A stretch of 64,000 nt of DNA. It comes from Fragilaria crotonensis (taxonomy: Eukaryota > Bacillariophyta > Fragilariophyceae > Fragilariales > Fragilariaceae). Location: assembly GCA_022925895.1 (NCBI GenBank), contig JAKSYS010000052.1:95413-159412 (forward strand), given 5' to 3'. A program made the translations under genes and the position numbers. Shown in pieces: positions 38,579-60,852 of the stretch. The notes beneath the pieces were generated by a model, which made no database searches, was not told where the DNA came from, and saw nothing but the letters and a program-made list of their open reading frames with translations. Each line of letters starts with the position of its first letter. Within the stretch, counting starts at the first letter, position 1.

Positions 38579-39283
38579 TTATACGGCTGGTTGCAATAAA
38601 GGAAAACTTATAGTAGCCCACGTAGAACCTAGTACAAAAGAATAGCATTAACCCTGTTGACCTAAAATTGACGGCAAATTGCATCCTCCGTTCGTCTCAC
38701 AATGGCGCTCAAGTATCTCTCAAGATCTCCGTTGTTGAGCTGCGGTATTTCCACGAGAGGTTATGGACTTGTGTTCAAGTCCATGAATGAAAACCTTTCA
38801 TGGAAATACGGCAGCAATGAAATTCACAAAATTATGGCAACATTGGTGAACACGCCGCTGCACTCATTGTAGAAATGCCACACGAGGGAATCACTCGCCA
38901 TGCTTTCCAAAAAATTTAAGAACGAGAAGTTTAGTATGGCTCAGTACGTAGAATCGTTAAGTGTCAAAAAAATCTAGACCAGGGTCTACGCATCCTACTA
39001 AATAAAATCATCATCATGAGTGCAACCAGCCATGTGATGGTGAAAGGGAGTTGCTCGTAACTTGACTGCAGAAGGAGTCATCGAAAAGGTCAGAGTCGTT
39101 GTTATGTCATTGACATCCACATTCAAATTACTTAAGAGTACAACGAACACCGATCTTTTCGTACAGACCAACACTATGACTACTATAAACAGTATTTAGT
39201 ATATTATTCAAGCAGGTAGGAGCGTACACCGAATACTATACAACTAGTGTGCGGAGTAACTTTTAAACCGAATGCTGTCGCAA
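38579..39283. other. Spacer between the Harbinger element and the MULE
   Basis: No gene seen. It includes the sequence flanking the MULE insertion site on the left. Confidence 0.45.
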
Positions 39284-39292
39284 TAGTATTTA

Positions 39293-39782
39293 GGGGAAAT
39301 TACAATATCACGCATTTTTTTGCCACTTTGCAATATAGTACAATGACTTACTATCCACAAATTCATATTTTACTATATACTACATTTGCAATTGTATTTT
39401 ACAATATCACGCATTTTGAAAAGATACATTTACAATATCACGCATTGTTTTGCCCTTTACTATATCACGCTTTTGTCGCCTGCCATGCTCGACCTCCACG
39501 GACATCATGGTACACCGTCTCGTAACATTCATCCAAGATGGACCACACTCATCGCTCCACCATGTCATACATACACAACGAACATCTTCATCACGCACTT
39601 CACATGTGTCGTTCGTTTATCAAATATCATGGTTTAAGTGCGGTCATAATTCTTTGTTGTGCTCTTTTCTTTCAAAAGAGCAACTTCATCTTCATCTATA
39701 TGGTCGACGAAGCTCCACCAAATCTGACATCAACAGTATACCCATACAAGATCTGCCTCACAGTACAGTACCACAAACAACT
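39293..39782 (+). repeat. MULE left terminal inverted repeat
   Basis: About 490 bp, matching 60,031-60,520 in reverse complement with scattered substitutions. The first 190 bp hold four copies of a TTACAATATCACGCA-type word (the fourth as TTACTATATCACGC), candidate transposase-binding sites. Confidence 0.9.
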
Positions 39783-39933
39783 CGTACGACGACCAACCTA
39801 CTGAGGTAGCAAAGTCCATGAAAGGCAACATGACATTGCCTTACAAATGTGTCCACTACTTTTCCTTTATACTCACGTTGCTACCGTTATACTTAGCAGT
39901 TGCCCTGCAAGTTAGTTATCATTAACATCAACA

Positions 39934-41699
39934 TCAATCGTCTTCTTCATCCTCGTCATCAGTATCTTTTGAACAGCATTCTTCATCGCCGTCAGGTCTG
40001 TACAAATCCAGACCCAACAAACGATTACGCATTGCCTGCCTCCTCCGTGCCTGCACTCTAGGACAGTCTTCGCCACTCGTCATTTCCAGGTCAGACTGGA
40101 ATTGACGTGCCGTCCCTTCCTCCTCCTGCATCCCTCTCGCAGTACCCATCATAACGTCTACGTCATCGTTGTAACGACAACCATGCCGAATACAACGACG
40201 AATGTATGTTTCGCCTCGTCATCGCTGTCATTACGGTCATGGGATCCAGTGGTGATCTTCTTTATTTCGTCGTCCTTCTCATTCACCTCGTGGAATAGTC
40301 TCTTCGGGCGCCTTGCATTTGAATGTGCCACATTCGTGACAACATCTGCTGCCGCACTATTTCCAGAAGCACGACATCGACCTGCTGCCACAATTTTTTC
40401 CTTGGCTGCCGTGAAGGTGCCATATAAGTGATTGTTGCCATTCCAACAACCCGAGCGTACTGGTGCTGTACCTGGCCCATCCGGTCGAGACACCGACGTG
40501 CAATGTCTCACAGCACGTCCGTCCCAACTTATGGCTGTCCCATGATAAAGCTTGACGGCAATGCCATTGTACTCCGTTCGCATGGCCTCCTTCCGTGCAA
40601 ATTGGGGAAGATCAAGTACCAGTTTGATGCACAACCGGGCATTTCCTCTGTCCACACACTAAATCCCTGCGACGCGTCGTTTACGTCGAAATGCGACGCG
40701 TTTCTAGGTCAACGCTCATATCAATCGTGTAACCCACCCGGATTCCATTGCAGTCATTCTCACCCATCGGAGCAATGGGTGGAAGAGATGAATCGGCTTC
40801 CATGTGTTGAACAACAGATAGCACATCGGAAAACAGCACATACCGACGGTTGCGAACGCCGCTATAAACCTTTTCAGTACTGTTTGCGGCACCTTATAGT
40901 TAGCGGCGTACCCAACAGTACCCGATCCGTCAAGGAGCACTCGTGTCCCGATGGCATGCATTGTCCCAACATCTCCTTTGTTCTGTCTCGCCGTTCCAAC
41001 AGGTACATGCCGACGCAGAAGCGAGTTGTGTTCCACAATTGCATCTAGGCAACCGACAACGCATATTGTTGCTTTAGATGACAATACCGCTGACTTGAGT
41101 GACGCATCAAGAATGCTTCGGACCATGATGACGGACTTCCTCCCAATCATGCTTGACACTGGCGGCTCAATGTCAACTATGATGTCAACGAATGGGCGTT
41201 CCTCAGGATCAACAATCCAGCAAGTATCCGGGATGTTAAGATGCAAGCATCCAGGAGCGTAATGACGACCACCCACCCTCGTGGAATTAGAGTTGACAAG
41301 GCGGCGGTTGTATTCTTGAGCTCGGTCAGGAACTGGCCACACACCCACATCATGGCCAGAGATAAGATCCGGTGGCATCCTTGGGCCTTCGTGATCCGCG
41401 CACTGTGTTGACGTGAACACTTCACGCGGAAAATTTATTGCGGCGGGATGGTACGAAACTCTCCACGCAGACACAAAAGTAGATGGTGGCGACCCGCACT
41501 TGTAACGCTGGCAAATCTTTTAACGTACCCATCCTCCCCAAATTGCAAGTCCAACTGTGGAGAGTGCTCCATGCCCGTCTTTAGACGAAACCAACTTATG
41601 TCCATGGCTATCCTGGAGCCATCAACACCTTCTGACTTTCTGCGCCAGTCCCTTACGGCGTAAAATACACCCGCCCCTGGGAGGAATGCAAGGAGAGTC
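39934..41699 (-). pseudogene. C-terminal part of the MULE accessory ORF, cut by an LTR retrotransposon
   Basis: Unrecognised protein. Frames 41,788-41,435, 41,474-40,716, 40,655-40,158 and 40,152-39,934 join into one path with small shifts. Visible blocks include GSRIAMDISWFRLKTGMEH, GVWPVPDRAQEYNRR, LHLNIPDTCWIVDPEERPF, a short KEKIVAAGR segment and a very acidic end (DTDDEDEEDD). No catalytic motif identified. The upstream part lies at 49,321-48,696 on the other side of the inserted retrotransposon, and the two halves are in the same frame once the insert and one CTGT are discounted. Confidence 0.65.
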
Positions 41700-41703
41700 C
41701 TGT

Positions 41704-41965
41704 TCAGTGAAATCTCCCGCAAGTGCGGCGAATCCGCCATTGCCGGAGATTGACCCTTAACAATATAACAATCGACAAGAAGCGGCATGCAACTTGATCA
41801 ATTATAAAAAGAGTGAGCAGATCTAGAATCTAGTTCCAAAACCGGTCCCACCATATGGACCAACAGGTTATCCGTGCGTGCGCGTCAGCAGTCCTCCACG
41901 TCATCGTGGGACACGCGCCTTGTATGCTTGTCCGAATATCCCGCACTCATGACAGGATTCATTCA
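41704..41965 (-). repeat. LTR (3' LTR in element orientation)
   Basis: 262 bp; by eye no difference from 48,434-48,695. On the minus strand it starts TGAATGAATCC and ends TTTCACTGA. Confidence 0.92.
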
Positions 41966-42592
41966 GTCCCCTCGCACTAGGCGTCACAGACAACTAGTTC
42001 GACTCTTAAATCCGCCATGCAGAGGCCGGCCATCATCAGCTATTCTTGGTGGTTCCACGTGTCATCACATGTACGTCCACCCATCAGTTCAATCTGTGGT
42101 TCTGCACCATTGCATACATCCACATGACGGTGGTTCCGCGCCTTGCGTACATCCACCTAGGGATAAGTGGTTCCATAATCATTATGTACTTCCACTTGCA
42201 TCATGTCCGTTTTGGACACTTCACCATGTCTGTGTTATGTCCCTTTGGACACTTCACCATGGCACACATGAGAGCACAACTCTCTTAGTCGCGGTCCCCG
42301 GAAGACACTTAGTCAGTTCATCTGCTCTAAGTTGTTGCCTCAGTCTTCCTCAGCAATCCACACAAAACCAACCGCTGACGTACTTCGCATTTGTCGATAA
42401 TGTATGTCACCGCCTTCAGTCGTTTACTTCACAACCAGGGTCACTGCAACCTTTGCAGCCACAAATTCAAATCTAATTCGTAAATCAGATCTTCGTTTGA
42501 TTCAACCATGTATCACACCAACCTGCTTGGTTTGTGTTGACATGGCAAATCATCAAAATCAAGCACTCCTGACATCAGGTAGTTACGTCTGG

Positions 42593-43340
42593 TTACACAG
42601 CAGCATTGCTGATAACAGAGCAATACTCCATCCAGTCATATAACCAGAAGCATGTCAAGCTTAGCTCCGCCTCGTCGAAGGCCACGCTCAACTGATTGTA
42701 CCATTTCAGGTATTCAAAGACATGGAAAGCACGGTCATGATGTCCCCTCCTCAGTGCAGCGAGGAAACGCAACAACATTGCAACGTCCACAGAGATACCG
42801 ATCCAACCAAATTCACAAGTCCAATGCAATACGCTGATTCAATCCTGGAACAGATCACACACTTGGCAATCCAACTCTGGGTGGTATCAATCTCATTACA
42901 TAACCATCTCTCATTATGATCAACACTCTTGCGCTCAGATGTTCACCAATCTCCTCAAGTTCACGTTCAATTTCAGTTGCACCAAGGCCAAACATCACTA
43001 CCATCTTTACTTAGTTCGTTTGCCTGTTCCATTGATCGATTTCTTGACTTTGGTTTTCACATAAGAATCAAGTTTGCTTTACACATCCGTTCCTCAAGGT
43101 AGGCTTTGCGGGAAGATAGTCCATCACAACTTGTGACTCACTATGTGGGATGCAATGAGCACCATTCACACAGCGTAGGAAATACTTTCAGCACGTCCCC
43201 ATTCAGCTTAACCCTTGGTCTCATCCACAAGTCAGGATCTTCATTACATATAAAGACTTCCCACATACTGTGGCTGCGGTCCCAACTTCGGACAACATTC
43301 GACTTCAAACCAAATGGAACACGAACAAGCAGTAGCACCC
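42593..43340 (-). pseudogene. Degenerate copia RT and RNase H remnant
   Basis: On the minus strand 43,260-43,180 reads EDPDLWMRP...LNGD, the block that precedes the RT active site in copia elements. The following frame reads LRCVNGAHCIP where YVDD would be expected, so the catalytic Asp pair is gone. Further on, 42,829-42,593 reads a GWIGISVDVAMLLRFLA...GHHDRAFHVFEYLK block that matches the region just after the copia RT leading into RNase H. Integrase and gag could not be recognised with confidence. Confidence 0.65.
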
Positions 43341-46300
43341 AACAACTAACTTTGCCGCACCCAGCTCATGCCTTGCAGCTGCGTATATCTCCTCCAGCAT
43401 TGGAGCATCCAGTCATGTCCCTTGCACATCAGCAGACAGGACATTCAAACTTATCTTCAACATTGAAGACTTCATTCAGTGTCGCCAACGTGGATGCAAT
43501 CCTTTTACAGCCACGCGACACAATCGATCTGGTGCCCTTTGGCAACCAGACTTGCCGTTCTTGTCAAGATCATCTCGACATCAAAGATCATATGACAGCC
43601 AACATACTTGTGGAACTTCAGCATGACACCATTGTCAATTATTTCGAACGCTGATCGGATGCACTTCATCTCCAGCTCGATTGCCTGTCCTCAAGATTGG
43701 TCCCCATTCATTGAACTTAAGGAGCATGTGTCAAAGACCTTCTAGCACAATTCCAAACATGCAGCTCCATGCCCAATGTCTGGCCTTGACCATTAACAGA
43801 ATCTGATCCTCCATGCGCAAGACCTTGTAACCACCAAGGAATTATAGACTCATTTCCACAACCCTGTTGGCAACATCGAACTCCGCAACTTAGACCAGAC
43901 CTAACTCTTCAATTCAATCAATTTATGGGACGACCGCAATCGTTGGCTCATCACAGCATTTGACTATCAGTTCCCAACCTTGCATTGTATTGATAGGCGG
44001 CCTGGTCTCCCCTGACATAAGTATGCCCATCACTCTTTGACGGCTTATGCTCAGTCTGCCATTGGTCAACCATCACCCACAACAACACAGAGCAGCCTCA
44101 TTCCTCCGTTAGACGTATAAATAGAAACCGCACCTGTCAATCCACCTGGGACACATAGTCACTCAGATAGCATACTAAGACATAGCACAATGATTACTTG
44201 TCAATTGCTTGACCAACATAGCCACGCTTCACCCTATGGCATGTGCTTTCATAGCCTCTCAGCCTTGTGCAACAGCGCCTGTTGAATTCATTGTGATTGT
44301 TGGACTCTAGGGTGTGGCCATCAGTCTCCTCCTTGGAGTCATCCATGTCCCCAGCCTCCAAACAACTTCCGTCTTCACCATTGAAGAACTCAATAGGATC
44401 CTCCAGCATGGAGTCCTTTCAATACGGGTCCATGTCCTCAACTTTGAGGCATTCCCACCTTTTTGGAGCAAATATCTTTGTCCTCCAATCTATTGAGCAA
44501 AAGCTTGGCAATTGGGTTGGCAAGATCATCTTCACACCCATTCCAAAAAAAACTTTCAAACAACATCTTCACCAGTTATAGTCACCGGGGTACAGAAGGA
44601 ATGCCAAAACTTCAGCAACTCCATCCAATCCACTGACCAAACAGCAATTGAATCAGACATCCTGGATTAAATCCCACTTGGGCCCAGCTCGTCCCCATCA
44701 ATGACTTCATTGGAGTTGTTGCGTTCCCGATACCATCAGGTTTCTTGGCGCCATCACTTTGTTTTCTGCCCCTGCACCAAATTGTTTCAGTGCCATGGAG
44801 CATCAGTTCTCAAGATTCCAGCTTAAAGACTTTGCATGGTTTGGTTGAAGACTGTTGGGCACCATCAGCTGTTCAGGAGAACTGCCAACTGACTTTCCAA
44901 GCTGCCCATGACCCATCTTCCAGCGCATTGTCAGCTGCAACTGCCCAAGGGATACCCGTTCATTAGGTAATGACATCAATGCAAACACAGGTTGAGATGG
45001 GCGCATCCTTGACCGCTCATAGGCGCCTGCGTAGCCAATGCCATGTCCCCAGACAGGTAACACATTCAGAATCAATCGGAGTTCCAACAGCCATGGAAAC
45101 CAGTAAACAACCTGACCACATTTCTGATGCACTTCCTTTTGCCCAATACGTCAGTCTGAGTTGCCACTTGCAACAATTTCTCAACAGCAGGCCAACTCCC
45201 CACTGTCCTGATGGAACACCTGGTGTTAGTATAGATTGCTCCTTGCTCACCGATAGAACAAATAACTTTTGGCTCTTAACATCCGGCAACAAGTAGACAA
45301 CTTTGCCTCTATGCCCAGACAAGCCATCTCCAGCGACATCATTAACTGCAAAAATGCGCCCACAAAACGGTCCCCTAGAGAGCCATCCTCCTGACCGATG
45401 TAATCACACATCAAACACAGCAATTCAACCGCAGAAACCAACCTTGGTGCATTCCGCATATGATCAGTTGCCAACAACATTTCAGCAACACACATGCTGG
45501 AAATACAAATCTCCTCCTTTTTGGCAAATCGATCAAAGTAGGAATCACAGAACATCTGTGAGATCAATGCAACAAGAGCTAACAACTCACGCATAGTGAC
45601 AAAGTGCCATTCAAGGATATGGAATACGCAACATTGCGGTTGGATAAGATAATGCAAGAACTTGGCATCAAACTGGTCAGGTACATCCATGACTAGTGAC
45701 ATCATTTGCACAATTGAGTTGGGGGTCAGCAGAGTCACATAACTCAGTCCCCATAGTACAGAGCCTCATGACATTGAGGATGTACTGTTTGTCCATTCTC
45801 AGGGTAAGTCCACATATTCGCAGCCGGGGCGATGGAATTCTCCTGTATGGGATAATGTTCACCATGAAAGGTGCACAGTGTTCTGACATCCTTTGTCAGA
45901 GACAAACAGAGCATTGCTTCTTGCAACACGTTTGCCTGTGTGAGAGTCAAGTTCACTCAAAAAAAGACAGTGATCAGTAGAACATGGCCCTGCCTGCAGA
46001 TCATACGGTTCTACTCTGCCAATCAGTGGCAAACCTTCTTCCAGCATTGGAAGTCACAGTTTTGGCGCTTAGTCCTCCTCAAAAGGTTCATCCTCCTGAG
46101 AATCTGCAGTTGCAGCAGCATTGTTACTTGCATTGGACTTGCCTTTCACATCCTTCTTTTTTTCATCACAGGCCTGTTTGGCATGGGCCTTGCATAAGGC
46201 TTCAAAGTGTTGTATGCCTTGGTGGAGAATTTCCAGAGTTGCTCACAATCTCCCTTCTGGCTGCCTTCACCCTCACTTCAGTCTCCTATTCACATGCTTG

Positions 46301-47185
46301 GACTACCATTCTTGTACGTGTCTGCCAGCCTTGGCAATCTCACAAGCAACAGCTAGAGCCTTGATTGCACACAGTAGCTCATTGAAGCCTGCAAGGGAAC
46401 CAGTCACTTCTTCAACTATGCCATTTCTGGCTCCTCCAGGAAATGCAACACATTATGCTCCTGTTGGTACCATCCTGAATTCATTCTTGACTGACCAAAA
46501 GTGTATCATCCTTACCCCTGAACAAGACCTCAGTAACAATCATTGCATACTGGGCAGCAGTAGTCATTGCATACTTCTAAGTCCCTCTGGTAGCAGTTGC
46601 AAAGTAAGCCGCCCCCCAAGCCAAAGGCACTGGAGACCTGCACATCCATTGTACATTCCATTGGGGAACTAAGCAAATGGCCAACCAGGTTCCTCCACAA
46701 CAGAAATGAGCATCTGTCTAGCACATGCCTGTCAGACATGCAAGAACATCTTGGTAGTCCAACATGGGCGCAACAGCAAGGCCATCATCAACCAAACCAG
46801 TTGCCATGTCATTACAGATACTTCACTGTTGCCATGGGTGAACATGTTCCTTTGGAGTCCCTGCAACAACACACATTTGTTAATCAGGACAAGGGTACAC
46901 GGTTCCATCCACTTCAGCCAGCTCAGCATTGAGTGTAGCATTGGTGGTTCCTTTGTTCCATCCCATCTTCTTGGCCAAGCAAGTCATGAGAACATCTCAG
47001 AATGCTGCACCAATCAGCACATGGGGACAAACAACCGGGGACAGGATGATTGTTGACATCAACATCAGCCACCTTGGGCCTCCACCCGGTAGAAACCATG
47101 GTCCTATAGTCAAAATCGAGGAGAGACAGGCTAGTTAGTAGGTTGTATATGGTATAAGTACCCAGCACCTCAAACAGTCCACACA

Positions 47186-47626
47186 TTAGAACATTGAAGC
47201 CCAAGCAAGGAGTAAAACAAACAGGGAATGACCGGGGATACACCATGCTGGTGAGAGGAGGAATTGTTGATAGTTACCAGGTGTGCGGAAAAAATGCGGC
47301 ATCCCGTGCAAAATTGTGAACTCCATGCCCAAAATGCACTCTTGGCAAGGTACGTGGAACTCGGTATGTTCCTTACGCGGAAACGCACTACCATTCATCA
47401 GTCTTGCCGTGAAACTCGGTATGTTTTGTACGCACAATCGCGTTACCAATCGTTCGTTCCACCATTCCAAAATTTTATCCGTGAATGCCGAGGCCAAACC
47501 GCCTAAGTAATACTTCAACCTCAACGTGCTCCTCGCTGGCACACGATCGTCATTCAATTTTCGACTTAGATGACACACAGACCAATCGTGGTTCGAGTAC
47601 GTCAGCGCGAAGAATCTCGTTTTCAC
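47186..47626 (-). CDS. Unrecognised ORF in the 5' part of the LTR element (146 aa)
   Basis: The longest open frame in the CpG-richer 5' part of the retrotransposon. It has aromatic/Cys-rich composition and no recognised domain. It could be a remnant of leader or gag or chance. Confidence 0.2.
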   Translation of the reverse strand: MKTRFFALTYSNHDWSVCHLSRKLNDDRVPARSTLRLKYYLGGLASAFTDKILEWWNERLVTRLCVQNIPSFTARLMNGSAFPRKEHTEFHVPCQECILGMEFTILHGMPHFFRTPGNYQQFLLSPAWCIPGHSLFVLLLAWASMF

Positions 47627-48433
47627 ACGACCGCTTACTTAAGGAATCTTCAGACCAATCGTGCGTATGGTCACACGTCGGTCGTACATCATCCGCACAT
47701 TTTGGTCACACTTAGGCGACTTCCGGATCAATTTTGAAATTGACCTGTCTGTGTGAGTGCGAACGTGTACATGTTGAAGTAACACGAACGTCCGGTACAT
47801 ACGTGGCGGATTCTGTGACATTTGTCACTCGTGTACCGCGCTAAGTAAAAAAACAAACGAGCTCTCACAACGACCATCGTTGTGCTCGTACGGTTCTCAC
47901 GTTCACACGTGCACCCTTTGCACACGTCAGTGGGCATTGTCCATACGTGTACGGCCATCGTACATATATCCAAATGAGCCAAAGAGCATAGTAAAATAGC
48001 ACACTTTGCTAATGTGTCCGGTATACACTAGTCCCATAGGGACAATACCAAACCTGACCACCTAAGTAGGCTCAATAAAGCAATTGTACTTAGGGCATCG
48101 CGTACCCATGACGCGCCACATCATGCATGACTAATTTTAGGAAACTTTTCCACGGAATTTTGCCTTGATGAAGTTGGTCCTTGTGCTTTCCTGTCAACAT
48201 TGACAAGCACATCCCCACCATGGGGATTCTGGCCTCCTGCGCTTCTGGTTTGAACCATAGCGCCTATGGTGTCGTCACCATCATCGTCAATTGCCGCCGC
48301 GCGCCCAAGTTGTGTGACCAACACAACAATGATGGTCGCATTTGCACAGAATCAGCAATCATGCTCGGATTGATCAAGTCCTCGCATCACTCACCAATGC
48401 AGCTCATCTGCAAAGCATGTGGGTCTGATAAAC

Positions 48434-48695
48434 TCAGTGAAATCTCCCGCAAGTGCGGCGAATCCGCCATTGCCGGAGATTGACCCTTAACAATATAACA
48501 ATCGACAAGAAGCGGCATGCAACTTGATCAATTATAAAAAGAGTGAGCAGATCTAGAATCTAGTTCCAAAACCGGTCCCACCATATGGACCAACAGGTTA
48601 TCCGTGCGTGCGCGTCAGCAGTCCTCCACGTCATCGTGGGACACGCGCCTTGTATGCTTGTCCGAATATCCCGCACTCATGACAGGATTCATTCA
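48434..48695 (-). repeat. LTR (5' LTR in element orientation)
   Basis: 262-bp direct repeat partner of 41,704-41,965. It contains TATAAAAAG-type text on the plus strand (ATTATAAAAAGAG) and CTAGAATCTAG palindromes. On the minus strand it opens directly after the truncated accessory ORF. Confidence 0.92.
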
Positions 48696-49321
48696 CTGTA
48701 CTTGAAGTCATTGATGTCATCCAGGTCTTCTTCTTCAGACGCAGGTGCCAGAACGACGTCGTCGTCACCCAAGGTACCAGAGCCACTTATACCCAACGCC
48801 GCGGCAGCTGTCGGAGTAATCTTCCGATTGCAGATGACATCCATGAGGATGAATTCCGAGAGGAATTCCGATGATGATCCGTGCTTCATGAAAATGTCAT
48901 CAACAGACCGCAATTGCGTGATGGCAGTACTACGATCGGAATCATTGTTGAGACCGAACGAGCAAGCAAGCGCATACGCAATCCATCGCAAGGGTGTCCC
49001 GCATACCTCGACCTCTCCCTTCATTGTCCCTGTCTTCACCGCATCGCGAAACGCAGTCGCGAAATCCCCACCTTCACTGAAATTACCGCCGTTCATGGGG
49101 AAGCACTTTAGTAGAAGCGCCAACACCTTTGGACTGGAAGGAAAGTAATTCCTCTGCTTGCGTTTCTTCGGCATCTTGTTACTTAACCGTTTTCTCGAAC
49201 GATCCACCACTACTACACGTGGATTTTCCTTTCCAAAGTTGAGCACAGTTGACCGACAAATGGACGTCCGACATCGCGCCTTCAACGTATCGTTGTCTTC
49301 ATTCGGTATCAAGTCCGACAT
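48696..49321 (-). pseudogene. N-terminal part of the MULE accessory ORF
   Basis: Starts at the ATG at 49,321 (MSDLIPNEDND). It contains a basic segment (MPKKRKQRNYF, possible nuclear signal), an Ala/Gly-rich helical domain (LRWIAYALACSFGL) and an acidic end (EEEDLDDINDF). The reading frame runs straight into the retrotransposon LTR, which supplies an immediate stop. Function unknown. Its divergent placement from the transposase suggests a second gene of the MULE. Confidence 0.65.
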
Positions 49322-49344
49322 GGCTGGTGGTTTGCCAATACTGT

Positions 49345-49506
49345 ACACCGCTAGATGGCAGGGAGAGTACTGTATAGTTTGTTGACAGTGAAACAAACTC
49401 TGTCGGCTAGATGGCAGACGGAATTTGTTTCGGTGACAACGGCTGTAACCCACGTCAAGAACACCTCGTTCTACTCAACGCAACAACCATTCCGGCTAGA
49501 TGGCAG
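49345..49506. promoter_or_regulatory. Three copies of a CTAGATGGCAG motif upstream of the MULE accessory ORF
   Basis: (C/G)GCTAGATGGCAG occurs near 49,349, 49,404 and 49,494, all in the same orientation, just upstream of the minus-strand ORF start and within the divergent promoter region shared with the plus-strand protease/transposase unit. Candidate promoter or protein-binding repeats. Confidence 0.45.
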
Positions 49507-50045
49507 GAAATGATGATGCGCTCTTAGTAGTGACGACGTGACGGACGTTACCTTGAGATGTGCTGAATCGAAGATTGTCCGAATGAGTTTACAACAAGAA
49601 GACAGGAAGAAGTAATCTAAAGTGGGGAAGTGACGCAGTGAAATGTGTTGGCTGTGAAAGTCCGCGCAAAATTCTTCGCCCAGTACATCTTCTACGTTGA
49701 ATTTCGCTTGATTTGAATCATAAACTACTACTTAGAGTACCAGCGCGAAGGATAACAAAATTTTGATGTTTCTCTCTAGTCATGAAAATTAGTGTGTACT
49801 GGAATGATAATATATGACACACCAATCCCTCCAACAACTGCAGTAATTTTTGTTCTTTGGATAGCAAAACGCAGGCACGTTTTGCAATGAAAGAAAATGC
49901 CAAACACTTAAGCGTTTAACTTACACATAATACGGATGAGTAGGAGTACCACTTTTACTACCGTAGATCGAATTCTGGAGCCGTCGTTGGTCGTCTTCGC
50001 TTGACGTTGTCTTGGGAGTTGTGTTGCGATCACCACAAATAAACC

Positions 50046-50878
50046 ATGAAGGAGGCACACTTTCCGGGAGATCCTCGCTTTTCTGGATGGATCTCACCCA
50101 GTAGTGAGGACACTTCTGCGCTGTCAACAAATGCTTGGTTAAGCACGTTGCTGTTGGACTGTATATTGCAGCGATCTGTCCTCCCAGGAGGTAATTTCCA
50201 CGAATGCATCTCACATTGGAAGCCTTGGCACCTATGAGTACTTCAATTCATGTAATGACTTGATCAATGATAATCAGAACTCGTGGAAGACGAGACGACG
50301 AAAGGACGTAAACTTGCTCGTAGTCGAACGTCGCTCGTATTCGGCAACAAATGAAAGCTTGTTTTGGATCGGCGCGTACTCAACAGGCTGCTTATCCCGA
50401 TTGTGTTGGGAAATCATTTTTGTGCTATGCCTGGACTGTTCGATCTCGACGCCGGAGTTCGTAAATGACATGACGTTTTATGATTCCTGGTACGCCGCAC
50501 ACGTCAGGTTCACCCCGATGTCCTACGCATTGTAAAGGTTGTGAATTTATTCATTCACAATTTCATTCTACACGAGAAGAAACATGCACACCTAAGGGAA
50601 AGTGACGCGGCGCTGATTGGCAGGGTGCATTATTGCGATTGTCCCATCCAGAAAATGGGTTTGACTGCGGCTTGTTTGCAGTGGGTGTTGTATTACACCT
50701 CATCGAGGGCATTGATGTCACGAGAAACGTTTGGCAACAAGACGTCACCAAACTGCGAAGTAGGCTGGTGACAGTATTTGGGGATGGTGCTGACTTGGGA
50801 ACAACAAGTCAGGTTGTGCGCGATTGCTTTCCAGGTTGCTGGAGTAGCATCTTAGAGAGTTTCGGCTGGAGGTAGTTC
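50046..50878 (+). CDS. Ulp1-like (C48) cysteine protease region of the MULE
   Basis: Ulp1/SENP-type proteases process SUMO or SUMO-like proteins, and several MULE lineages (plant Kaonashi type) carry such a domain. Visible: STNAWLSTLLLDCIL (domain start), LLIPIVLGNHFCAM (catalytic His position, normally HW), FYDSW (Asp position), and PIQ..ENGFDCGLFAVGVVLHLIEG (oxyanion Gln, catalytic Cys). The blocks sit in different frames (50,046-50,210; 50,260-50,535; 50,541-50,640; 50,633-50,878), so two to four single-base shifts must be assumed. The triad order His-Asp-Cys is preserved. Confidence 0.65.
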
Positions 50879-50922
50879 ATAAAGAACCGAAGAAGGAACG
50901 AAGGCACAGTTCCGACAGTGAT

Positions 50923-51835
50923 GTGAGCGCTGCTGTCTTGGTGTTGACGACGCTGCAGGCTGAGGCAGATCGTCCTGCCAGGGTGGGCAAGCTCTTGTTG
51001 GCAAAAACAACAGACAGAGCGCAGGCGAGGATAGAGAAGAGGACTGAGAATCACAACAACGACGACGATGACGACGACGACGACGACAAGGTTGAGTTAG
51101 TAGACGATGATGATGACGAGTATGTCACCCGCGACAGCAGTGACGAGTCCAGTGTGCAGTCCGATGGCAAGGAGAAGCACGACCACAGCGTCGGCACTTC
51201 CACGCTCACAGCAGAGGAACAAGTCGAAGGAAAGCAGGGAAGTTTGGTAGCTACAAAGTCACAGGATTATGTATTGTATGATATCCTTGGTGATGCGAAC
51301 ATTGACTGCTTCTCAACCTTGGAGGAGGTAGAACCGTTCATCGAAAAGTATGAGGTCAGATCGAAATCGTTTAAGAGTGCAACGTTCCATTAGCGACCGT
51401 TTCAAACAATATCAATGTATGGAGCACGTCGACTGTCCGTTTCGTGTATTGATATCCAGGCGGCGATCCGACCTGATGTTCTGCGTCCGAAAGATTACAG
51501 GTGTGCACAGTGAGGTGTGCCGACCTAAACAGGCAGCTGATGGGAGGAAGTGGAAGAAGAGGCGAAACGCAGAGCTTGATGATGTTATCGATCAGATTGT
51601 TCGCACAAAGAAGGGAGCTCCAACACCGGCAGATGTCGTGAAGACAGCTGCAACGAAGTCGGGAGTTGTCATTTCATACATGACAGCGTACAGGGCGCTG
51701 CGCTTTCAAACTAGTAGCGTTAGAAATGCTGTCGTGAAAAACTTCCAAATGATCATTCCATTTTTGGAGGGCTTGAACAAAAGTAATCCAGGTTCTGTGA
51801 TTGGGTATACTAGGGATGAGGAAAAGAGACATCTA
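50923..51835 (+). pseudogene. MULE transposase, N-terminal part
   Basis: An acidic low-complexity linker (run of Asp around residues 45-55) precedes the MuDR-type N-terminal DNA-binding region: FSTLEEVEPFIEKYEV, then after a shift near 51,355 the C-x-x-x-x-x-C block YQCMEHVDCPFRVLISRR, KITGVHSEVC, and the helix region KKGAPTPADVVKTAATKSGVVIS. The open frame runs into the inserted TIR transposon at 51,836. No ATG starts the frame; it can be followed upstream into the Ulp1 region with one shift, so a single Ulp1-transposase fusion is possible. Confidence 0.8.
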
Positions 51836-53359
51836 AGGGTGCCAAAACTAAGTACCATAGTTGATACAAGAATTTTTTCTCATATGTATTGGAAAAATTT
51901 CAGGATTCCCAAATGTAGTTCAGGATTCCTGAAGTTTTGTTCAGGTTTACTTATTTAGTTCAGGATTTGGAAGTTTGCAGTTTCCTCATTTTTATGAAGA
52001 AAATTTTGCACTCCTGAACTACTGCAGTATTATTCCTGAGCTTTTTTCTTCATAATTTCGACATCAATAAAAATGCTGGTACTGTATGCGCTGTTTACGA
52101 TGTACTGGAGCATGGTGTATTGTAGATTGTGTATTGTGTACGGAGTGTTGCTTCTGTGCGCCATACAGTATACGAGTACAGTAATACAGCTTTTTACAGT
52201 TTCTGGCATACGGTATTCGGTGCAATATTCGGTCTTCTATTGTTTACAAGCATGGTGCACATTTCATGGTCTACTGTAGACGGTCTACGTTCTACCACGA
52301 AGTATGGTAGTATGGTTTGTCGCGTCTATCGCTCACTGGGTTATATGGTACAAGTAGTAGTACTATGTATGATATACAAGTACAAGTACTCCGAACTCCG
52401 GAGTATGAAGGATGGTGGTGTATTGTTTGTATTTTTGTATGCTTGTTGTGCATGGCACCAGGCGTTGCGGTGTATCGTATGGTGTGCTGCATGGTTTTGT
52501 GTATCAGCATTTAGTGGCGTAGTGGCGTACTACAAGCCCTGGTATGGTTCATTCATAGTACCGTACGTTGTTGTGCGTTGTGTGTTGTTTGTGGTACGGA
52601 GTCTTACTGGAATACAGTCTACTAGTCCTACTATCTTTTCTGGCGCAATACGGTCAGTTTTTATGGTGGTACTCCGAGTACTGTACGTCGTATTGTGAAC
52701 TACAGTTCTTGTGTAGTGTACTGTCGATGGTGCAGTATGCGTATGGTATGGTGGCATACGGTATGATATGGCGCGGTTTATGGTGTCGTGTACGGAGTGT
52801 TGTACTGGTACGGTGCTTCATGTACATGGTAAGGTGGTGTATTGCGTACTGCATAGCTACTCGTATGACAAATGATGCCAAGTGTCTGCGCGTTTTACAC
52901 CGTTCTTGCGCATGCGAGAGCGATCCGAAGAACGGCATTCCGTACAGTACCAGGTACATGTACATTGTACTATGCATAGTACTACAAGTATGCATACTTC
53001 TGGTTTGTTCGTAGAGAGAACATGATACTACGCTGTAGATCTTACGTAAAAAAGGTATTGTAGGTGGAATATGTCATATACACAGATTTATTCTTTCATC
53101 ACCAATACCAGTGCATGCTGTACGTTTCTACTGGCTTCGAAAATGCAAACGTATGCAGCCATGGTATTGCGCTTCGTAGAACCCTACCTGCGAATTTTTG
53201 TACGAAGTATCACATCAATTCGTTCGTTGTTTTGTGAACTCCACCACTTGCTGTCACCCCCAATTGAATACTCCATTCTTTGGCACCTTCGCCCCTTCTT
53301 CCTCTTCCCACCAAGCACACTTTGCTCTCCTCGTTGGTGAGTTGTTCCTGCTGATTGTT

Positions 53360-53396
53360 TGAGTGTTGATTGATTTGTTCAATCAATCAACACTCA
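53360..53396. other. Perfect 16-bp hairpin
   Basis: TGAGTGTTGATTGATT, a TGTTC loop, then the exact reverse complement. It lies inside the nested TIR transposon, about 1.5 kb from its left end, with no gene next to it. Confidence 0.8.
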
Positions 53397-53479
53397 TGAT
53401 GAGTTTTTGAGGTGCTCCTGTTGTGTGGGTACTGCCTCCTACGTACAGTACTCATTTCGGTATCACCGATCACCGACCG

Positions 53480-53735
53480 CAGTACTGTAGTACTTGGAGT
53501 ATCTTTGAGGCTACGGTGAACCAGCAGTACTACTACTCATGTACTCCAGTACTCCAGTACTCCAGTACACTCCTCCACTGTGATACTGCTGCATTGTACA
53601 GTACTGTGTTACCTACAGTACTCATGACAATGGACTGCAGTATTCGGAGTAGCCTGAGGCTACGGTAGACCAGTAGTACTTCTACTGATCTCCCCTCTAC
53701 TCCACTATGACACTGCTGAATTGTACAGTACTGTG
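53480..53735 (+). repeat. Diverged tandem duplication, period about 155 bp
   Basis: Two units share GAGGCTACGGT(G/A)(A/G)ACCAG, a CTCC-rich stretch and CTGCTG(C/A)ATTGTACAGTACTGTG in the same order, starting near 53,481 and 53,636. The first unit has an extra CCAGTACT triplet. Confidence 0.6.
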
Positions 53736-54181
53736 GTGATGGCATTGTACACCAGTACTAGTGCAGCTGCTGATGTTCCCGTCCAGTTGAAGACAAAGAT
53801 ACGTCATTGTTCTTGTCCTGTCGTGGCACCTTCATCCCGATGTACTTCTACAGTAGGCTGGCAGCAGTATGCTGCTGCTTCATTGTATTGCTTACAGGCA
53901 GGCTGGTACTATTGTTCTTTCTTGTTGTTGTTTTGCATTCAATCTCACATTGTCCCGCCTTTGTTCTGCTTTTTCTTTTAGGCGGCTGCTTGTGACAATG
54001 AATGTTGAGTGCCTCATTTTGTTGTGCTTTGATGGAAAATGGGCTTCTTCTGTTTGTGTGCTTCGATTGAGCATGTAAGGCAATCAGACTTTCAGAATCT
54101 ATATTCGGTCACCTGAGAGATTCTCATTGATATGAGTGAATCAAACCAGGTTGATCTACCGGTATAGGTCCTGTTTGTCAG

Positions 54182-54706
54182 TTGTCTGTTTGCATGCTCA
54201 AGAGTTGTATACACACAAGCCAGTTGCAAGATCATTCTTATTTAAACCAGCAAAATGTTGCACAATCCATCACTGTCCCAAGTCTCTCGCAAACCAGCAG
54301 CTGCTATGAATGTGGTGTAAATTCATCCCCTGCCCTGCCCAGGAAAAACAGCCAACAAACAATTCATACACGTTTATTCCAGTACGCAACAAAGCATCAA
54401 AAAGGTGGAGGGGAACCGATGATTGCAAAGCTCTCAAGCTACGACTGTACTGATGCCACTTCCTCTCCCAATCCATGCCAGCAAAAACCAAATCTATTTT
54501 ACGTGCCTATGACAAAGGGGCATTTGACTCACACAGATGGGCTCCACACTGGGAGTGTAGTAGCCCTCGCAAAGATCTGTCTGATGGAACTTGTGGCCAA
54601 AGCCAAATTCACTGTTGTTGAAATAATCTCAAATGGATCGCATACTACTCAGTGTGCGCTGCTTAATCCTCCGGTAGCTTTCACGGAAAATGGAAGCATT
54701 GGCTGA
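54182..54706 (+). CDS. Unrecognised ORF in the nested TIR transposon (174 aa)
   Basis: Ser/Thr/Gln-rich, with no recognised domain. No ATG-led context convincing enough to prefer it over the minus strand, where part of the adjoining ORF may extend. Low support. Confidence 0.2.
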   Translation: MSVCMLKSCIHTSQLQDHSYLNQQNVAQSITVPSLSQTSSCYECGVNSSPALPRKNSQQTIHTRLFQYATKHQKGGGEPMIAKLSSYDCTDATSSPNPCQQKPNLFYVPMTKGHLTHTDGLHTGSVVALAKICLMELVAKAKFTVVEIISNGSHTTQCALLNPPVAFTENGSIG

Positions 54707-54906
54707 GAACCAATTCTTTGTGACAGCTTACGTGTGCTGATCATGATTGCCAATATCTTGATGGAGTAACTTCTGCAAATGAATTTTGTAAATGTTGATG
54801 AGTTGTCTTCGCACTTCACGCTTGGAAGCGTCTGCATGAGTCCGCGCATTGTGCCCATGGCTTCTTGGTTTTGCTCTTTTCAGAGTGTACTAGTATACAA
54901 TCTCTG

Positions 54907-55422
54907 TCAGAAGAAGTGAATGATGCTCGCTTGCCACCTTAAGCTTTGTCGAGTAAGGTCATCATGGGCCCTGTGTGATAAAAGTGTTGTCGCTGATGCC
55001 AACACCACTCCTCCTATCACATCAGATGGAGAGCCATGATCTACATCCACTCTTTGTACAAAGGGAAGCAGTTTCTTCCCATTACGAACTGAGTTGATTA
55101 GGGCATGAACGTTTTTGGCACGTGAGAGTCCACCCACTGGGTTGTAAGAATAATTATCAGCAGATGCAGAGCGTGCCCACTCCAGAACTTCACCAAAAGT
55201 GTAGTTGGGTTTGGCATGGTCCAGGATCTTGAGGAGAGAAACAGTGCGTTTCTGATTGGTAGTATACATGAAGTTGGAACAAAATGATGGGGCTTCCACA
55301 TCTTCATCAAGTGCAGAATTGCTGGTACAGGTAAGAATGTTTGGGTCATCACTTAACACGGACAAATCATCACTTTTGTTGCAATCCTCAATATCCTCAC
55401 AAGAAGTGCTTTCAACTTCCAC
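54907..55422 (-). CDS. Unrecognised ORF in the nested TIR transposon (171 aa)
   Basis: ATG-led minus-strand ORF. Acidic Ser-rich N-terminus, then a basic/hydrophobic block (TTNQKRTVSLLKILD, GEVLEWARSASADNYSYNP, GGLSRAKNVHALIN) of the kind that recurs in diatom transposon-associated proteins. I cannot name the family with certainty. The last 35 residues look shifted out of frame, and the original protein probably continued towards 54,300. It is the best candidate for a transposition protein of this element. Confidence 0.4.
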   Translation of the reverse strand: MEVESTSCEDIEDCNKSDDLSVLSDDPNILTCTSNSALDEDVEAPSFCSNFMYTTNQKRTVSLLKILDHAKPNYTFGEVLEWARSASADNYSYNPVGGLSRAKNVHALINSVRNGKKLLPFVQRVDVDHGSPSDVIGGVVLASATTLLSHRAHDDLTRQSLRWQASIIHFF

Positions 55423-55829
55423 ACCATTGCCAGCCGGAGACTACAGAAGGTTGTACTGCAGAAGGTTGTCTGTGCCAACAAAATCCATGCAGGGATCATT
55501 CACCAAATGTCGCCTTAAAAGGGCAGGCCTTTTGTTACTTGTGCATGTGACATTCCCATCCTCATGAAGACGGCAACGGTGTGAAACAGACGCACCATGT
55601 GTTGCTGCAAGGTGTGATTTCTTCACAATGAAATTATAGCACGCAATGTTTCTATCAATATGCTGTGTATATGCTGCTTGATTGGAAAATGGTTTCTTGT
55701 TGAACTTCTTCAGGCAGAAGGGGTTTTAACAGAAGAGCAGGGGTGCCTTTGAGGACAACATTTTGAAGAGGACGAGTGAAGTGAAAATGAGATGTCAAAA
55801 GATGACAGGGCACAGATTCACTGCACACC

Positions 55830-56240
55830 AGTGCATGACCTTGGGGCCCGTTAGCCGGCCGGAAACCGCGGGCCAGCCGTGATTTTGGGCGGCTGCGGTC
55901 CATGTATTTCTGTCCCGGTCGATTCCTATCACTTTTCGGCCAATCGCGGGTAAAGGGCGGATCACCTGTCATTTTTCACGGGTACGGTGGTTGCTGACAA
56001 CGTACTGTCAGTACAGTACTGTGTACTATGTTTGTACTATGTACTGTACTTCCTTACGACTGCGGCCGGGTCCGGGTACGGGCAGGGACAGTCCGGCTGC
56101 GGCCCTGTGCGGGCAGGGACTGTCGGACTGCAGACGGGTACGGCCAGGCTCACATATTGGCATACGGCCGGCTGCGGCCAAAAGCCTCTGCAAAAATTTG
56201 GCCGGCTGCGGCTTCGGGTACCGTTTTATCTCAGATGTCA
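55830..56240. repeat. GC-rich repeat patch (CGGCTGCGG, GGGCAGGGAC)
   Basis: GGCTGCGGC recurs at least four times, GGGCAGGGAC(A/T)GTC twice, and CCGGCC/GGCCGG several times, in otherwise AT-rich surroundings. Short degenerate tandem units, no gene. Confidence 0.55.
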
Positions 56241-56422
56241 TGCACTGCTGCACACCAGCACAGAATTTTGGGAAAGCATGCATTCAAATTGTACATGTAC
56301 TTTTGGTACATTTTTGGTGTATGTAAAAAATGAAGGGGGGTGTGGTATGAATTCAAAATTCAAAACCTCTGCATGAATGTGTAGAACCTACCTACGAACT
56401 TGGTACTTGGTACAAAATTCAA

Positions 56423-57684
56423 ATGGTCGCAAAATACTATCCCACAAAAAGGATTTCCAGTGTTCAAAATTTGGTGCACCATCAAAAGTTTTTCCAACAA
56501 CAAGCAAGCACAAATACGACCATGGCATCAATGCCACAGGAAACAGCAGCAGGCATCACTGCCTTAAAGCCCAGCTCTAGGAAACAAAGGAGAGAGTTCA
56601 TAAAAGGCGTGCAACAAGTGACCACAGATCCCAATGATCTGATTCAAAGTGACAACGAGGAGGAAGAGGAGTTGGTGCCACAGAAAATGGATGCAAAACA
56701 AGGATGGAGGCATGCATACGGAAATCCACCATCCCTACCTTCAACTATTGGAAGCATGCATACAGAAATCCACCATCCCTACCTTCAACTATTAAAGTCG
56801 GGGAATCAAGTGACAGCCAACTAACATCATCGGTTCCAGGGCTAAGCAGCTTAATGGACATGAGCATGACGGAAATCTCAGAAGAGAATCAAATCAGTAT
56901 GATCAAGACTTGCATGAAAAAACACGTGTTCTCTATTTGGAAGTTCTATCAAAAAGACTATCATTCTCATTCCAGTGAAGATGAGAAAACACTTTGTGGC
57001 TTTATCATGAAGCACACAAACATTCGAGGAACCCAAAACTGGTGGCTTGGGATGTGGAGAATACTTGTAAAAACACACACTGATCTTCGGAACAATGCAA
57101 TAAAAAACATGCAAATGAAATTCAAAGGTGAGGATTTGAAGTGGATGTAACTTTGCCAAGTCCGGAGCATACTCACACCCACTTGCTTTCAACATCAAAC
57201 ACCTTGCATTCAGAGGGATTCACTTCCCATTTAGGAACGTATGGACACAGCCTGTACAGTGGATGCAAGGATGAAACCAGTTACCTCCTCAAGATGAGGG
57301 ATAACATCTGCTACAATGCCCAAATCATAGACATTTACTCGGCAGCAGCAACTGGAATAACATTATCAACAACATGGAGAACCACTGTGCAACAACTGAC
57401 AGGAAAGTATGGAGCAAGAAAATCCTGTCCATAAGTGATGAAGCATTCATTTTGCGGTGCCTGATCAACTATGGGAAGAGGTGGTTTGCCGAATTAGTAA
57501 AGACAGAGAAAATGGTAAGTTTATCCGAGTGGTTTGTCACAGAACAAACAACAAGGAACTGACTTGTTTTGTTATCACTTGTTGGAAACATCAAATCGGT
57601 ACATTGACAGATGAGGACAACAAAAACCTACCCGTAAGTTACACTATGATAAGTGAAATGAAAAAACCACATCCTAAATTCTGA
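56423..57684 (+). pseudogene. Unrecognised frameshifted gene of the nested TIR transposon
   Basis: Frames 56,423-56,824, 56,704-57,150, 57,141-57,434, 57,374-57,562 and 57,457-57,684 overlap head to tail as one path. Features: an acidic stretch (NEEEEELVPQ), a 45-bp internal duplication near 56,705-56,795 (CATGCATAC...GAAATCCACCATCCCTACC), and an all-helical block with RGTQNWWLGMWRILVKTH. No recognised domain. The element's second gene by position. Confidence 0.35.
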
Positions 57685-58612
57685 CCAATCTTTTCTCATG
57701 TTCTGCAGCCACCACCTTACACATTCTCCAGGAACAAGGGTGCTCGCTCATGATAATGGGGGAGGCTGTGGTTGGTCACAGGCTGGAATGAGGAAATACG
57801 ATGAATTATACATGGCCATCAAGAATGATAGAAAGAAATCAGCCCAAACATTCAACCAGGAACTACTAAAAATGTTTCTGTCGAGAAGGAAAAGGAGTCT
57901 GGCCAGGGGGTCAGGAAACAATTTGATGACAAGGGTAAGAAATGCCCACACAAGCGCATGGATGTATTTGACGACAACTCTGATGAGGAGGATGATAACT
58001 ACCCAGGCATCTTGCTTCTGAACTTGTCTACAGTGAAGTGAAAGTGGAGGCAGTTTAGAATTGATCAGACACTTAGTATGAATAGTAGAATGCTTCATCA
58101 AAGCCACACGAATAGGCGCATTAACACTAATATCCAACAAAAGTTAAAATGTGTGAAATGTATGTCAATTATATGAACAATGTCAGCTCAGAACTACTGT
58201 GGTGATTACTTCATACACACTACACAGCAACCTTCTTCTTTTCGGATGTCAAATTCAGGAATTGAAATTCATGATCACAAATGAAGAAGTGGTATAGTTC
58301 AGATATTTCGAGTCCCAAAGCTCAGGAATTCCACTTGGAAGCTAGTAAAATGAGTCATTGAATTTCAGAATTTGAAATTTTGGAGCTCAGGAATACAAAG
58401 TACGAGATCCTATGCAAGAGATGAAAAATTCAGGAAAAAGAAATTTCCGAGTTCAGGAAATACGAGGAAACCCACTTCATACACATGATGTACAAGCTCT
58501 TTAGTCCTAAGTTTTTACCTGTATTTTAGGTAAACATTATGAGCAAAAAAATATCATATCAAAGATGATTGGTTTTTCATATCCAAGAGCCGACTTGGTT
58601 TTGGCACCCTTA

Positions 58613-59960
58613 GATGGACTTGTCGATCTTCACGTATTTCCCGGTATCATGAACGGGGTGCTCAAGTTTGTTCGGCCGGTGGTGTCCTTGGATGCTACAC
58701 ATCTGAGGAGCGAACACAAGGGAACTCTGTACATGGCATCGGTTCTCAGTGGGTGCAATGACATCTTCCCATTGGGTTTATGATATGCGCCGGGAACGAG
58801 GATGGAGCGACGTGGAAGAAGATGCTTGAATTGTTGAAGAAGGCATGTCCAATAATTGATGATCAGGGATACGGCGACAGTGACACGGATGGTGTTGTTA
58901 GGCCACCGCTTTCTTTTCATTTCAGACAGAGACAAAGGTCTGAAGGAGGCATTGAAAGCGGTGTTCCCAAATAAGTACGAGATGAGCTGTGCTAGACACA
59001 TCCAGGCAAATGTGACGAAGTATGGAAAGCAGTGTGCAAAGTTTGTCTGTTCCATAGCTAAGTCATTCTCGACACGAAATGCGAGCCTGTTGCTAGATGA
59101 GATTCGGAAGGTGAAGCCAGAGGCCGCCACATATTTGGAAAGCATAACCGTCGGGTGTTCTGTGGCGGAGTACTCAGTGGTATTCAGATTCACCGTCATC
59201 ACCTGCTCAGTTGCCTCCACGGTATGGAATTGTAACTTCGAACACCTCCGAGTCGGCAAACAGTATGTTATCAGAAGCAAGGAATCTTGGATGGCTGGAG
59301 GCTGTGAACAAAATTTTGACATAATGACGACGAGAGTGTGTACTTGCCGAAGGAAGTATGCTTCATGAGATGGATCGGAGGTGGTGCCTAGAGTTGCCCA
59401 GATTCTGAAGCGTAGGTGGATGCTGCGTCTATGACTGTCGATGAGATTGAGGTGGGGTGTGGTGACTTCAAGGTGGTGGAACCAATATCAATTGTGGATG
59501 AAAATGGCGATGACAATGTGCAACGGATGGCACGATCCTACGGTGATCCAGACCGTGTCCTTGTGGTCAAGCCATTTGGAGTGGTGCAGCTGTGGAGTAT
59601 GGCAGGACTTCCTTTACCCATGTCGGCATGCATGTGCAGTGTTCAGGAAATGGGAGGAAAAAGAATTCAATTATGTTCTGCGAAGTTTAGTCCATCCGTT
59701 TACTACATTTGAGTTCGTGCACAACACTTTCAAGAAGAACGTTTTCCTGTGTGCTTGGAAACAACTGTATATGATGGTGAAACTAAGGAACCTGACATGC
59801 CAAAACGGCAATCTGACGACCAAAAACAAAACGAATTCGCAAACGCAGTAAGTTCATTGTAGCTGAGGATTCTCCTGTCAAATGTTCTGTTTGTGGAAAG
59901 AGGGCACAACCGAAGAACTTGTCCTAATGTAGTTGGTAACAATGACAATAAGTAGAAGAA
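58613..59960 (+). pseudogene. MULE transposase, catalytic and C-terminal part
   Basis: Continues the same frame after the insertion. VRPVVSLDATHLRSEHKGTLY carries the first catalytic Asp, FISDRDKGLKEAL the second, CARHIQANV the conserved C-x2-H block, and SNTSESANSMLSEARN the downstream block with a conserved Glu. A SWIM zinc-binding motif follows (CSCGVWQDFLYPCRHACA near 59,595-59,650) and then a CxxCGK...C zinc knuckle near 59,880-59,930. Frame changes occur near 58,780, 58,925, 59,160, 59,330 and 59,545. MuDR-type assignment is firm. Confidence 0.85.
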
Positions 59961-60030
59961 ACGAGAAGTGTTGCTGACATTCGCCATGATGAGATCATTG
60001 TTCACAGATGATTGGAAATTTACGTCAATC

Positions 60031-60520
60031 GGTTGTTTGTAAAGTACTGTCACGCAGATTGTGTATGGGAGTACTGTTGAACTCAGATTTGGTGGAGTTT
60101 TGTCAACCATATCGATGAAGATGGAGTTGCTCTTTTGAAACAAAACAGCGACAAGAAGAATTATGACCGCACTTATGGTATGATAATTGATTAACAAACG
60201 ACACATGTGAAGTGAGTGATGATGATGTTCGTTGCGTATGTATGACATGGTGGAGCGATGAGTGTCGACAATCTTGGAGGATTGTTACGAGACGGTGTAC
60301 CATGTTGTCCGTGGATGCGGAGCATGGCAGGCGACAAAAGCGTGATATTGTAAAAGAGGGCAAAATAATGCGTGATATTGTAAATGTATCTTTTCAAAAT
60401 GCGTGATATTGTAAATTACAATTGCAAATGTAGTATATAGTAAAATACGAATTTGTGGATAGTAAGTCATTGTACTATATTGCAAAGTGGCAAAACAATG
60501 CGTGATATTGTAATTTCCCC
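60031..60520 (-). repeat. MULE right terminal inverted repeat
   Basis: Reverse-complement partner of 39,293-39,782, with the same four TGCGTGATATTGTAA-type words near the tip. Divergence between the two ends is modest and spread along the length. Confidence 0.9.
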
Positions 60521-60529
60521 TAGTATTTA

Positions 60530-60852
60530 TTCTACTTGAGAAGCAGTTGTTGCAGAGCTTTCAGTCGATACGGTTGTTGCAGTACAACTCTACTTTTAAG
60601 CTTGCAGGGATTTCTGTATTGTTTAGTGTTGGATCCATTCGGATGCGGTCATACTAGCCCATCAGATATCTCTGTAGCCGTTGCTCAAGAATCGCTGATA
60701 GCAACCAGCGTTACGATGATGCAAGGGTCGCTGTCTACTGAACAGGCTCAGACGACGCTCATGTTGAGTCGCACGACGCATCACAATCGCTTAATGAAAA
60801 CTCGGGGGACGATGACTTAGTATCGGTTATCCCCAGGGTTTCCCAACCTTCG
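60530..60852 (+). other. 5' region of the membrane lipase gene next to the MULE insertion
   Basis: The lipase frame can be followed upstream of 60,853 through SGDDDLVSVIPRVSQPS with one interruption near 60,757, so part of this interval is probably N-terminal coding sequence. The MULE has inserted just upstream and may have separated the gene from its original promoter or first exon. Confidence 0.4.

Follow-up and report, generated by a model that had tools for sequence, protein, structure and literature searches.

Composition of the locus

In a 64,000-nucleotide stretch of the Fragilaria crotonensis genome (assembly GCA_022925895.1, contig JAKSYS010000052.1, positions 95,413 to 159,412; hereafter the window), the 9-bp word TAGTATTTA occurs exactly twice, at 39284–39292 and at 60521–60529, and its reverse complement does not occur at all. 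The two copies directly adjoin the GGGG and the CCCC that form the left and right tips of a 21,228-bp interval (39293–60520), and the ends of this interval are long inverted repeats of each other. Inside, from left to right, are the pieces of an antisense gene split by a long terminal repeat (LTR)-type insert, a stretch that tentatively resembles an Ulp1-type protease, and the pieces of a Mutator-like element (MULE) transposase split by a TA-flanked insert. We conclude that the interval is, almost certainly, a single DNA transposon of the Mutator-like type, about 7,455 bp long, which inserted through a 9-bp staggered cut that duplicated TAGTATTTA, and which was later hit by two nested elements.

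The duplication and the size bear directly on this conclusion. MULEs generate target duplications of 8–11 bp, typically 9 bp, and a 9-bp word was found on both sides here; the chance that two random 9-mers from the window agree is 6.4e-6. As to size, subtracting the two inserts, each with one copy of its own duplication, leaves 21,228 − (6,992 + 4) − (6,775 + 2) = 7,455 bp. The region thus looks like 21 kb of scattered pieces because two other mobile elements later entered a MULE of about 7.5 kb. These results bear out the original prediction, which had named the 9-bp word abutting the GGGG and CCCC tips, an ancestral size of about 7.45 kb and membership of the MULEs; the last is supported by the ends, by the ordered transposase domains and by the two nested insertions that explain the length.

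One could instead picture a composite, in which two short elements with similar ends, such as two opposed non-autonomous MULEs, happen to bracket unrelated sequence, the 9-bp match being fortuitous. The arms do lie 20 kb apart, and elements unrelated to them do sit in the interior. However, TAGTATTTA is confined to the two outer tips, the transposase pieces that flank the second insert join in frame, and coding MULEs are commonly about as long as the residual 7,455 bp. We therefore regard a composite origin as highly improbable, and treat the interval in what follows as a single MULE copy.

Terminal inverted repeats and motif array

The left arm occupies 39293–39781 on the plus strand, with GGGGAAATTACAATATCACGC at its tip, and the right arm occupies 60032–60520 on the minus strand. 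BLAST paired 39291–39781 with 60032–60522, with two bases of each duplication included, which gives arms of about 489 bp; MULEs are expected to have terminal inverted repeats, often long ones. A match over about 490 bp had been predicted. A global alignment over 490 bases from each arm, run as proposed with that prediction, has 486 ungapped columns, 443 of them identical and 43 mismatched, and 8 gap columns. The two 900-base ends gave a local alignment score of 781, against a maximum of 50 among 192 random pairs of 900-base window stretches, one member of each pair being reverse-complemented (200 pairs were drawn and 8 overlapping ones dropped). The match between the arms is far beyond chance.

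The arms also carry a repeated motif, ATATCACGC, which was chosen post hoc after the arms had been inspected. It occurs 10 times in the window, counting both strands, against 0.39 expected and a maximum of 2 across 100 shuffles. Eight of the 10 copies are in the arms, four in each and all within the outer 181 bp: those of the left arm are at 39305, 39404, 39435 and 39462, and those of the right arm are on the minus strand at 60500–60508, 60401–60409, 60370–60378 and 60340–60348. Three copies per arm fall inside the outer 151 bp. The distance from the tip is equal in the two arms for three of the four, and the fourth is off by three bases.

The mismatches between the arms (14 transitions and 29 transversions) are unevenly distributed. 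Only 3 fall in the outer 150 bp, compared with 40 in the 336 ungapped columns farther in (Fisher p = 1.9e-4, the 150-bp cut having been set after the bins were seen). The outer part of each arm is likely the functional end, with several sites for the transposase; gene conversion between the arms would also account for the mismatch gradient.

The transposase gene

The transposase reads on the plus strand in three parts. The N-terminal part (50848–51833) comprises an acidic region followed by a piece matching the MuDR-type DNA-binding family PF03108, with one frame change between the two. The catalytic part (58613–59370), which follows the second insert, contains SLDATH and then ISDRDKGL together with the match to the MULE family PF10551, and is crossed by several frame changes. 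The last part (59435–59930) holds a SWIM zinc finger and a CCHC-like knuckle, the latter read by eye across two frames. The order along the gene is thus acidic region, DNA-binding piece, SLDATH, ISDRDKGL with the MULE match, SWIM and knuckle. We take the aspartate of SLDAT to be the first catalytic one of the transposase. The frame shifts in this coding sequence, one before the second insert and several after it, were read by eye.

The zinc finger expected of a MULE is the clearest of the domain matches: SWIM (PF04434) reached E = 4.7e-6 and 26.5 bits, above the Pfam cut-off of 19.6. A window-wide six-frame scan with regular expressions (RING-CH, CCHC, SWIM, C48, two integrase patterns and LDATH) gave 8 matches. 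Three of these (SWIM, C48 and LDATH, once each) fall in genes of the MULE, and the other five, two CCHC and three SWIM, were taken as chance.

Several results weigh against the assignment. First, PF10551 was matched at profile positions 66–99 of 99 with E = 2.4e-5 and 25.1 bits, below its cut-off of 27.6, and PF03108 with E = 0.012 and 15.7 bits, below its cut-off of 25. Second, the transposase pieces at 58613–58780 and 58762–58971 had no Pfam match of any kind. Third, the 21-base tip had no exact match in either of the two collections scanned, one of genome contigs and one of viral contigs; five protein pieces of the MULE found no relative in the viral contigs, and one piece found none in the genome contigs. 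Both collections are viral, bacterial and archaeal, and negatives there say little. PF00872 was matched with E = 3e-4 and 20.2 bits, against a cut-off of 21. The low or absent domain matches all concern pieces of a broken gene, and the assignment to the MULE/MuDR DDE transposases was made by E-value and order, not by the curated cut-off. As for the contig scans themselves, two transposase pieces gave 3 pattern matches each in the viral contigs and three pieces of the antisense gene gave 3, 2 and 15, and one transposase piece gave 26 in the genome contigs; none of these matches encodes a relative.

No whole transposase can come from this copy, because the second insert and the several frame changes break the gene. 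The MuDR-type transposase of the original prediction is present, with MULE-type domains in order, but in a disrupted form. The interval 39293–60520 is a real MULE copy that is unable to make its own transposase.

The broken gene admits a variant of the single-MULE reading that does not exclude it, namely that the same element had lost its autonomy before landing, with a broken transposase, and was moved in trans by a relative. The outer arms would then be near-identical from a recent landing, the inner arms having diverged earlier. This would agree with 3 differences in the outer 150 bp beside 40 of 336 farther in, alongside several frame changes in the transposase. However, the same gradient could stem from gene conversion between the arms or from constraint on the ends, and the overall divergence of the arms (43/486) also fits decay wholly after landing. 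We consider the variant plausible but somewhat unlikely.

Two nested insertions

The first insert, of the LTR type, is 6,992 bp long (41704–48695). It is bounded by direct repeats at 41704–41965 and 48434–48695, each of 262 bp and 100% identical to the other, and by CTGT at 41700–41703 and 48696–48699, as expected of an LTR element with a 4–6-bp target duplication. The lack of any difference between the repeats suggests that this insert entered recently. When read on the minus strand, the purine-rich GCGAGGGGAC precedes one of the repeats, from which the insert probably has the minus orientation. In that reading the repeats run TGAATG...CACTGA, against the expected TG...CA, provided that the 4-bp duplication is correct. 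As for gag-pol coding, none of the 8 open reading frames (ORFs) of at least 120 amino acids matched Pfam, and the insert consequently appears to be of a non-autonomous type.

The second insert, which resembles a DNA transposon, spans 6,775 bp (51836–58610). It carries AGGGTGCCAAAAC at both ends, within a TA duplication at 51834–51835 on the left and 58611–58612 on the right. The inverted tips are perfect over 19 bp counting CATCTA, and tips and duplication together are those of a TA-targeting element. A delimitation of this insert without duplication, with a 19-bp arm starting from CATC, was rejected: removing those bases would shift the transposase frame, whereas keeping one TA preserves it.

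The heptamer TTCAGGA, picked after the ends of the second insert had been inspected, has 8 copies inside it, and their position is what is striking: all are near the ends, five of them no more than 200 bp from the left one and three no more than 360 bp from the right one. In the whole window it occurs 16 times against a mean of 10.8 in shuffles, and 5 of 100 shuffles reach 16; by this test, which covers the window count, the excess is modest. A transposase of a known superfamily was sought among the 10 ORFs of at least 120 amino acids; none scored above a Pfam cut-off, and the sole match below it was to YL1_C (E = 0.07). One ORF of the insert gave 5 pattern matches in the viral contigs, none encoding a relative.

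Both insertions interrupt open frames. With short flanks of the first insert joined at one CTGT, one minus-strand frame is open over all 133 codons, with NDFKYRTLLAFLPGAG at the junction, and the five other frames across the joined flanks contain stops. With short flanks of the second insert joined at one TA, a plus-strand frame stays open for 117 codons before a stop; it begins where the DNA-binding region ends and passes the junction and SLDATH (RDEEKRHLDGLVDLHVFPGIMNGVLKFVRPVVSLDATHLRSEHKG). Because the joined flanks are open at each junction, two separate genes become continuous once the two inserts are discounted.

A probable antisense gene and an Ulp1-like stretch

The gene interrupted by the LTR-type insert lies on the minus strand. 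Its upstream part (48698–49474) is a frame of 259 codons that is cut by the insert and resumes beyond it at 41701, from where the downstream part reaches about 40161. This downstream part (40161–41701) consists of frames at 41438–41701, 40719–41519 and 40161–40658, with stops and a frame change. We infer that the antisense pieces form one gene with a role. The two genes of the MULE probably start in the middle of the element and run outward, the second gene leftward on the opposite strand.

No piece of the second gene matched a Pfam family at its cut-off; one piece had three matches far below it, the best with E = 0.066. Seven ORFs from the window, not every one a confirmed gene, served to train a codon model, which gave the four pieces +0.036, +0.019, −0.045 and −0.002 bits per codon, and gave the opposite-strand frames of the first, third and fourth pieces −0.033, −0.108 and −0.053. 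Each of the three comparable pieces thus outscores its own opposite; the margins are small, and the piece at −0.045 falls below the opposite of another (−0.033). Codon usage favours the second gene as coding only weakly, because of these small margins and because even the transposase, in its SWIM piece, scores −0.098. Single-sequence structure prediction for two of the pieces yielded mean pLDDT (predicted local distance difference test) values of 34.5 and 43.0, too poor for use.

Upstream of the transposase and in the same direction, the plus-strand stretch 50050–50880 is tentatively assigned as the remains of an Ulp1/C48-type cysteine protease, spread over two frames (for example ENGFDCGLFAVGVVLHL). 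One piece matched PF02902 with E = 0.16, below cut-off. The pieces joined with an X, the site of the frame change having been chosen by eye to suit the family signature, reached E = 0.042 and 14.1 bits, again below the cut-off of 20.7. In a PDB search with this stretch, a yeast Ulp1 chain ranked tenth of 11 rows (E = 0.97), behind unrelated enzymes.

These data raise the question of whether the antisense gene and the stretch resembling Ulp1 belong to the element, or are host fragments that it captured, as in the cargo of Pack-MULEs. That the second-gene pieces have no Pfam family above cut-off, and that the Ulp1 match is both weak and broken, would suit captured fragments. Disagreeing with this, the antisense frame is open for 259 codons and across the joined site of the first insert, and three of the four pieces outscore their own opposite frames, by small margins. 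We consider captured cargo unlikely, and continue to treat the two as genes of the MULE, the protease tentatively.

Comparison with known elements

MuDR of maize has a two-gene layout in which the genes converge from the ends. The element described here resembles MULEs such as MuDR in its 9-bp duplication, its long inverted ends, its MuDR/MULE-type transposase with a SWIM finger and its antisense second gene. It differs from MuDR in that its genes diverge from the middle, and in that its transposase is broken.

Three further MULE groups can be compared through their rows in a table of a MULE survey from 2019 (PMC6446971). MULE-Diatoms (group 37) is entered there with arms of 123–124 bp, no duplication, one ORF and a SWIM finger; judged by that row, the 489-bp arms, the 9-bp duplication and the probable two genes found here set the present element apart. 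MULE-Cc of red algae (group 38), with a 9-bp duplication, arms of 244 and 640 bp and a SWIM finger, is alike in its finger and duplication. Mutyl, with a 9–10-bp duplication, an antisense second ORF (MutB), 22-bp arms and a C2H2 finger, is alike in the duplication and the antisense ORF, and unlike in its short arms and C2H2 finger, as opposed to 489-bp arms and SWIM here. MuDr elements have also been listed in a diatom genome (PMC7466962).

The Ulp1-like stretch invites comparison with the KI-MULE (Kaonashi) and VANDAL elements of plants, which are described as non-TIR, that is, without terminal inverted repeats (PMC2528002, PMC13317346, PMC10398659). They are alike in that a MULE transposase is accompanied by an Ulp1-type protease (tentatively so here), an additional gene and short repeated non-coding motifs; unlike them, the present element has 489-bp arms. 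According to PMC2528002, Ulp1 domains are known in both directions in plant MULEs. In KI-MULEs the Ulp1 domain and the transposase point in opposite directions, whereas the tentative protease here has the direction of the transposase. VANDAL elements show anti-silencing, which is conjectural for the element here. A literature search, in which most subscription journals were not covered, found no Ulp1-bearing MULE linked to stramenopiles or diatoms, nor any report combining Mutator-like elements, diatoms and a SUMO protease.

Nesting is likewise familiar. In a study of candidate coding MULEs of maize and rice (PMC3903597), over a third have nested insertions, which in maize are mostly LTR retrotransposons. 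The hosts differ, and the nested elements here are one of the LTR type and one TA-flanked DNA element. The present element is a MULE of an ordinary kind, well preserved and with a few uncommon details, and nothing in it leaves the known kind. What is gained is annotation: fragments that look scattered become one ordered series of insertions, which is good annotation and not surprising.

Proposed history

The following sequence of events is proposed. The MULE transposase, equipped with a DNA-binding piece, a DDE domain, a SWIM finger and a probable knuckle, would have bound the ATATCACGC array of each arm and, cutting the landing site with a 9-bp stagger, transposed the element in a cut-and-paste manner. 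After landing, the second gene would have received an LTR-type element, and the transposase gene would have been hit, ahead of the first catalytic aspartate, by a DNA element flanked by TA. We infer this order of events after the landing of the MULE.

A bolder proposal, by analogy, is that the element represents an undescribed non-plant MULE lineage, which independently brought together a transposase, an Ulp1-type protease in the same direction, a second gene that diverges from the transposase gene, and long arms that each have an array of four motif sites. Either the second protein or the protease might then act on the arms against silencing, much as VANC does on the non-coding repeats of VANDAL elements. 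We regard this as quite improbable. Should the second gene and the protease be conserved in relatives, these could be used to ask if MULEs outside land plants encode helper proteins directed at their own ends.

Other features of the window

About 210 bp downstream of the MULE, the region 60742–63620 opens with a membrane-protein-like, stop-to-stop ORF of 575 codons; in a frame after it, a lipase-like GHSLGGG motif was read by eye. The 575-codon ORF had no match in Pfam or in the PDB.

To the left of the MULE, 35292–38581 contains a complete-looking PIF/Harbinger element (35295–38578) with TTA on both sides and perfect inverted ends of 27 bp, or 28 bp with one flanking base. It encodes a plant-transposon-type transposase (PF04827, E = 2e-58) and has a second, minus-strand ORF at 37573–38421. 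Farther left, minus-strand ORFs occupy 983–7550, one of which (983–2266) weakly matches the tyrosine recombinase family PF00589 (E = 0.0089, below cut-off); this region is perhaps a recombinase-bearing retroelement. Long minus-strand ORFs are also present at 28077–31219, including one of 667 codons with a weak SAP-domain match below cut-off and one of 250 codons with a chance-level match.

Two repeated structures were also noted. A tandem array at 26387–27386 has 5.6 copies of a 178-bp unit with 95% matches, and a plus-strand frame of 246 codons (26792–27529) is open and overlaps part of it. At 31816–31917 there is an imperfect palindrome with two 46-base arms that are 78% complementary.

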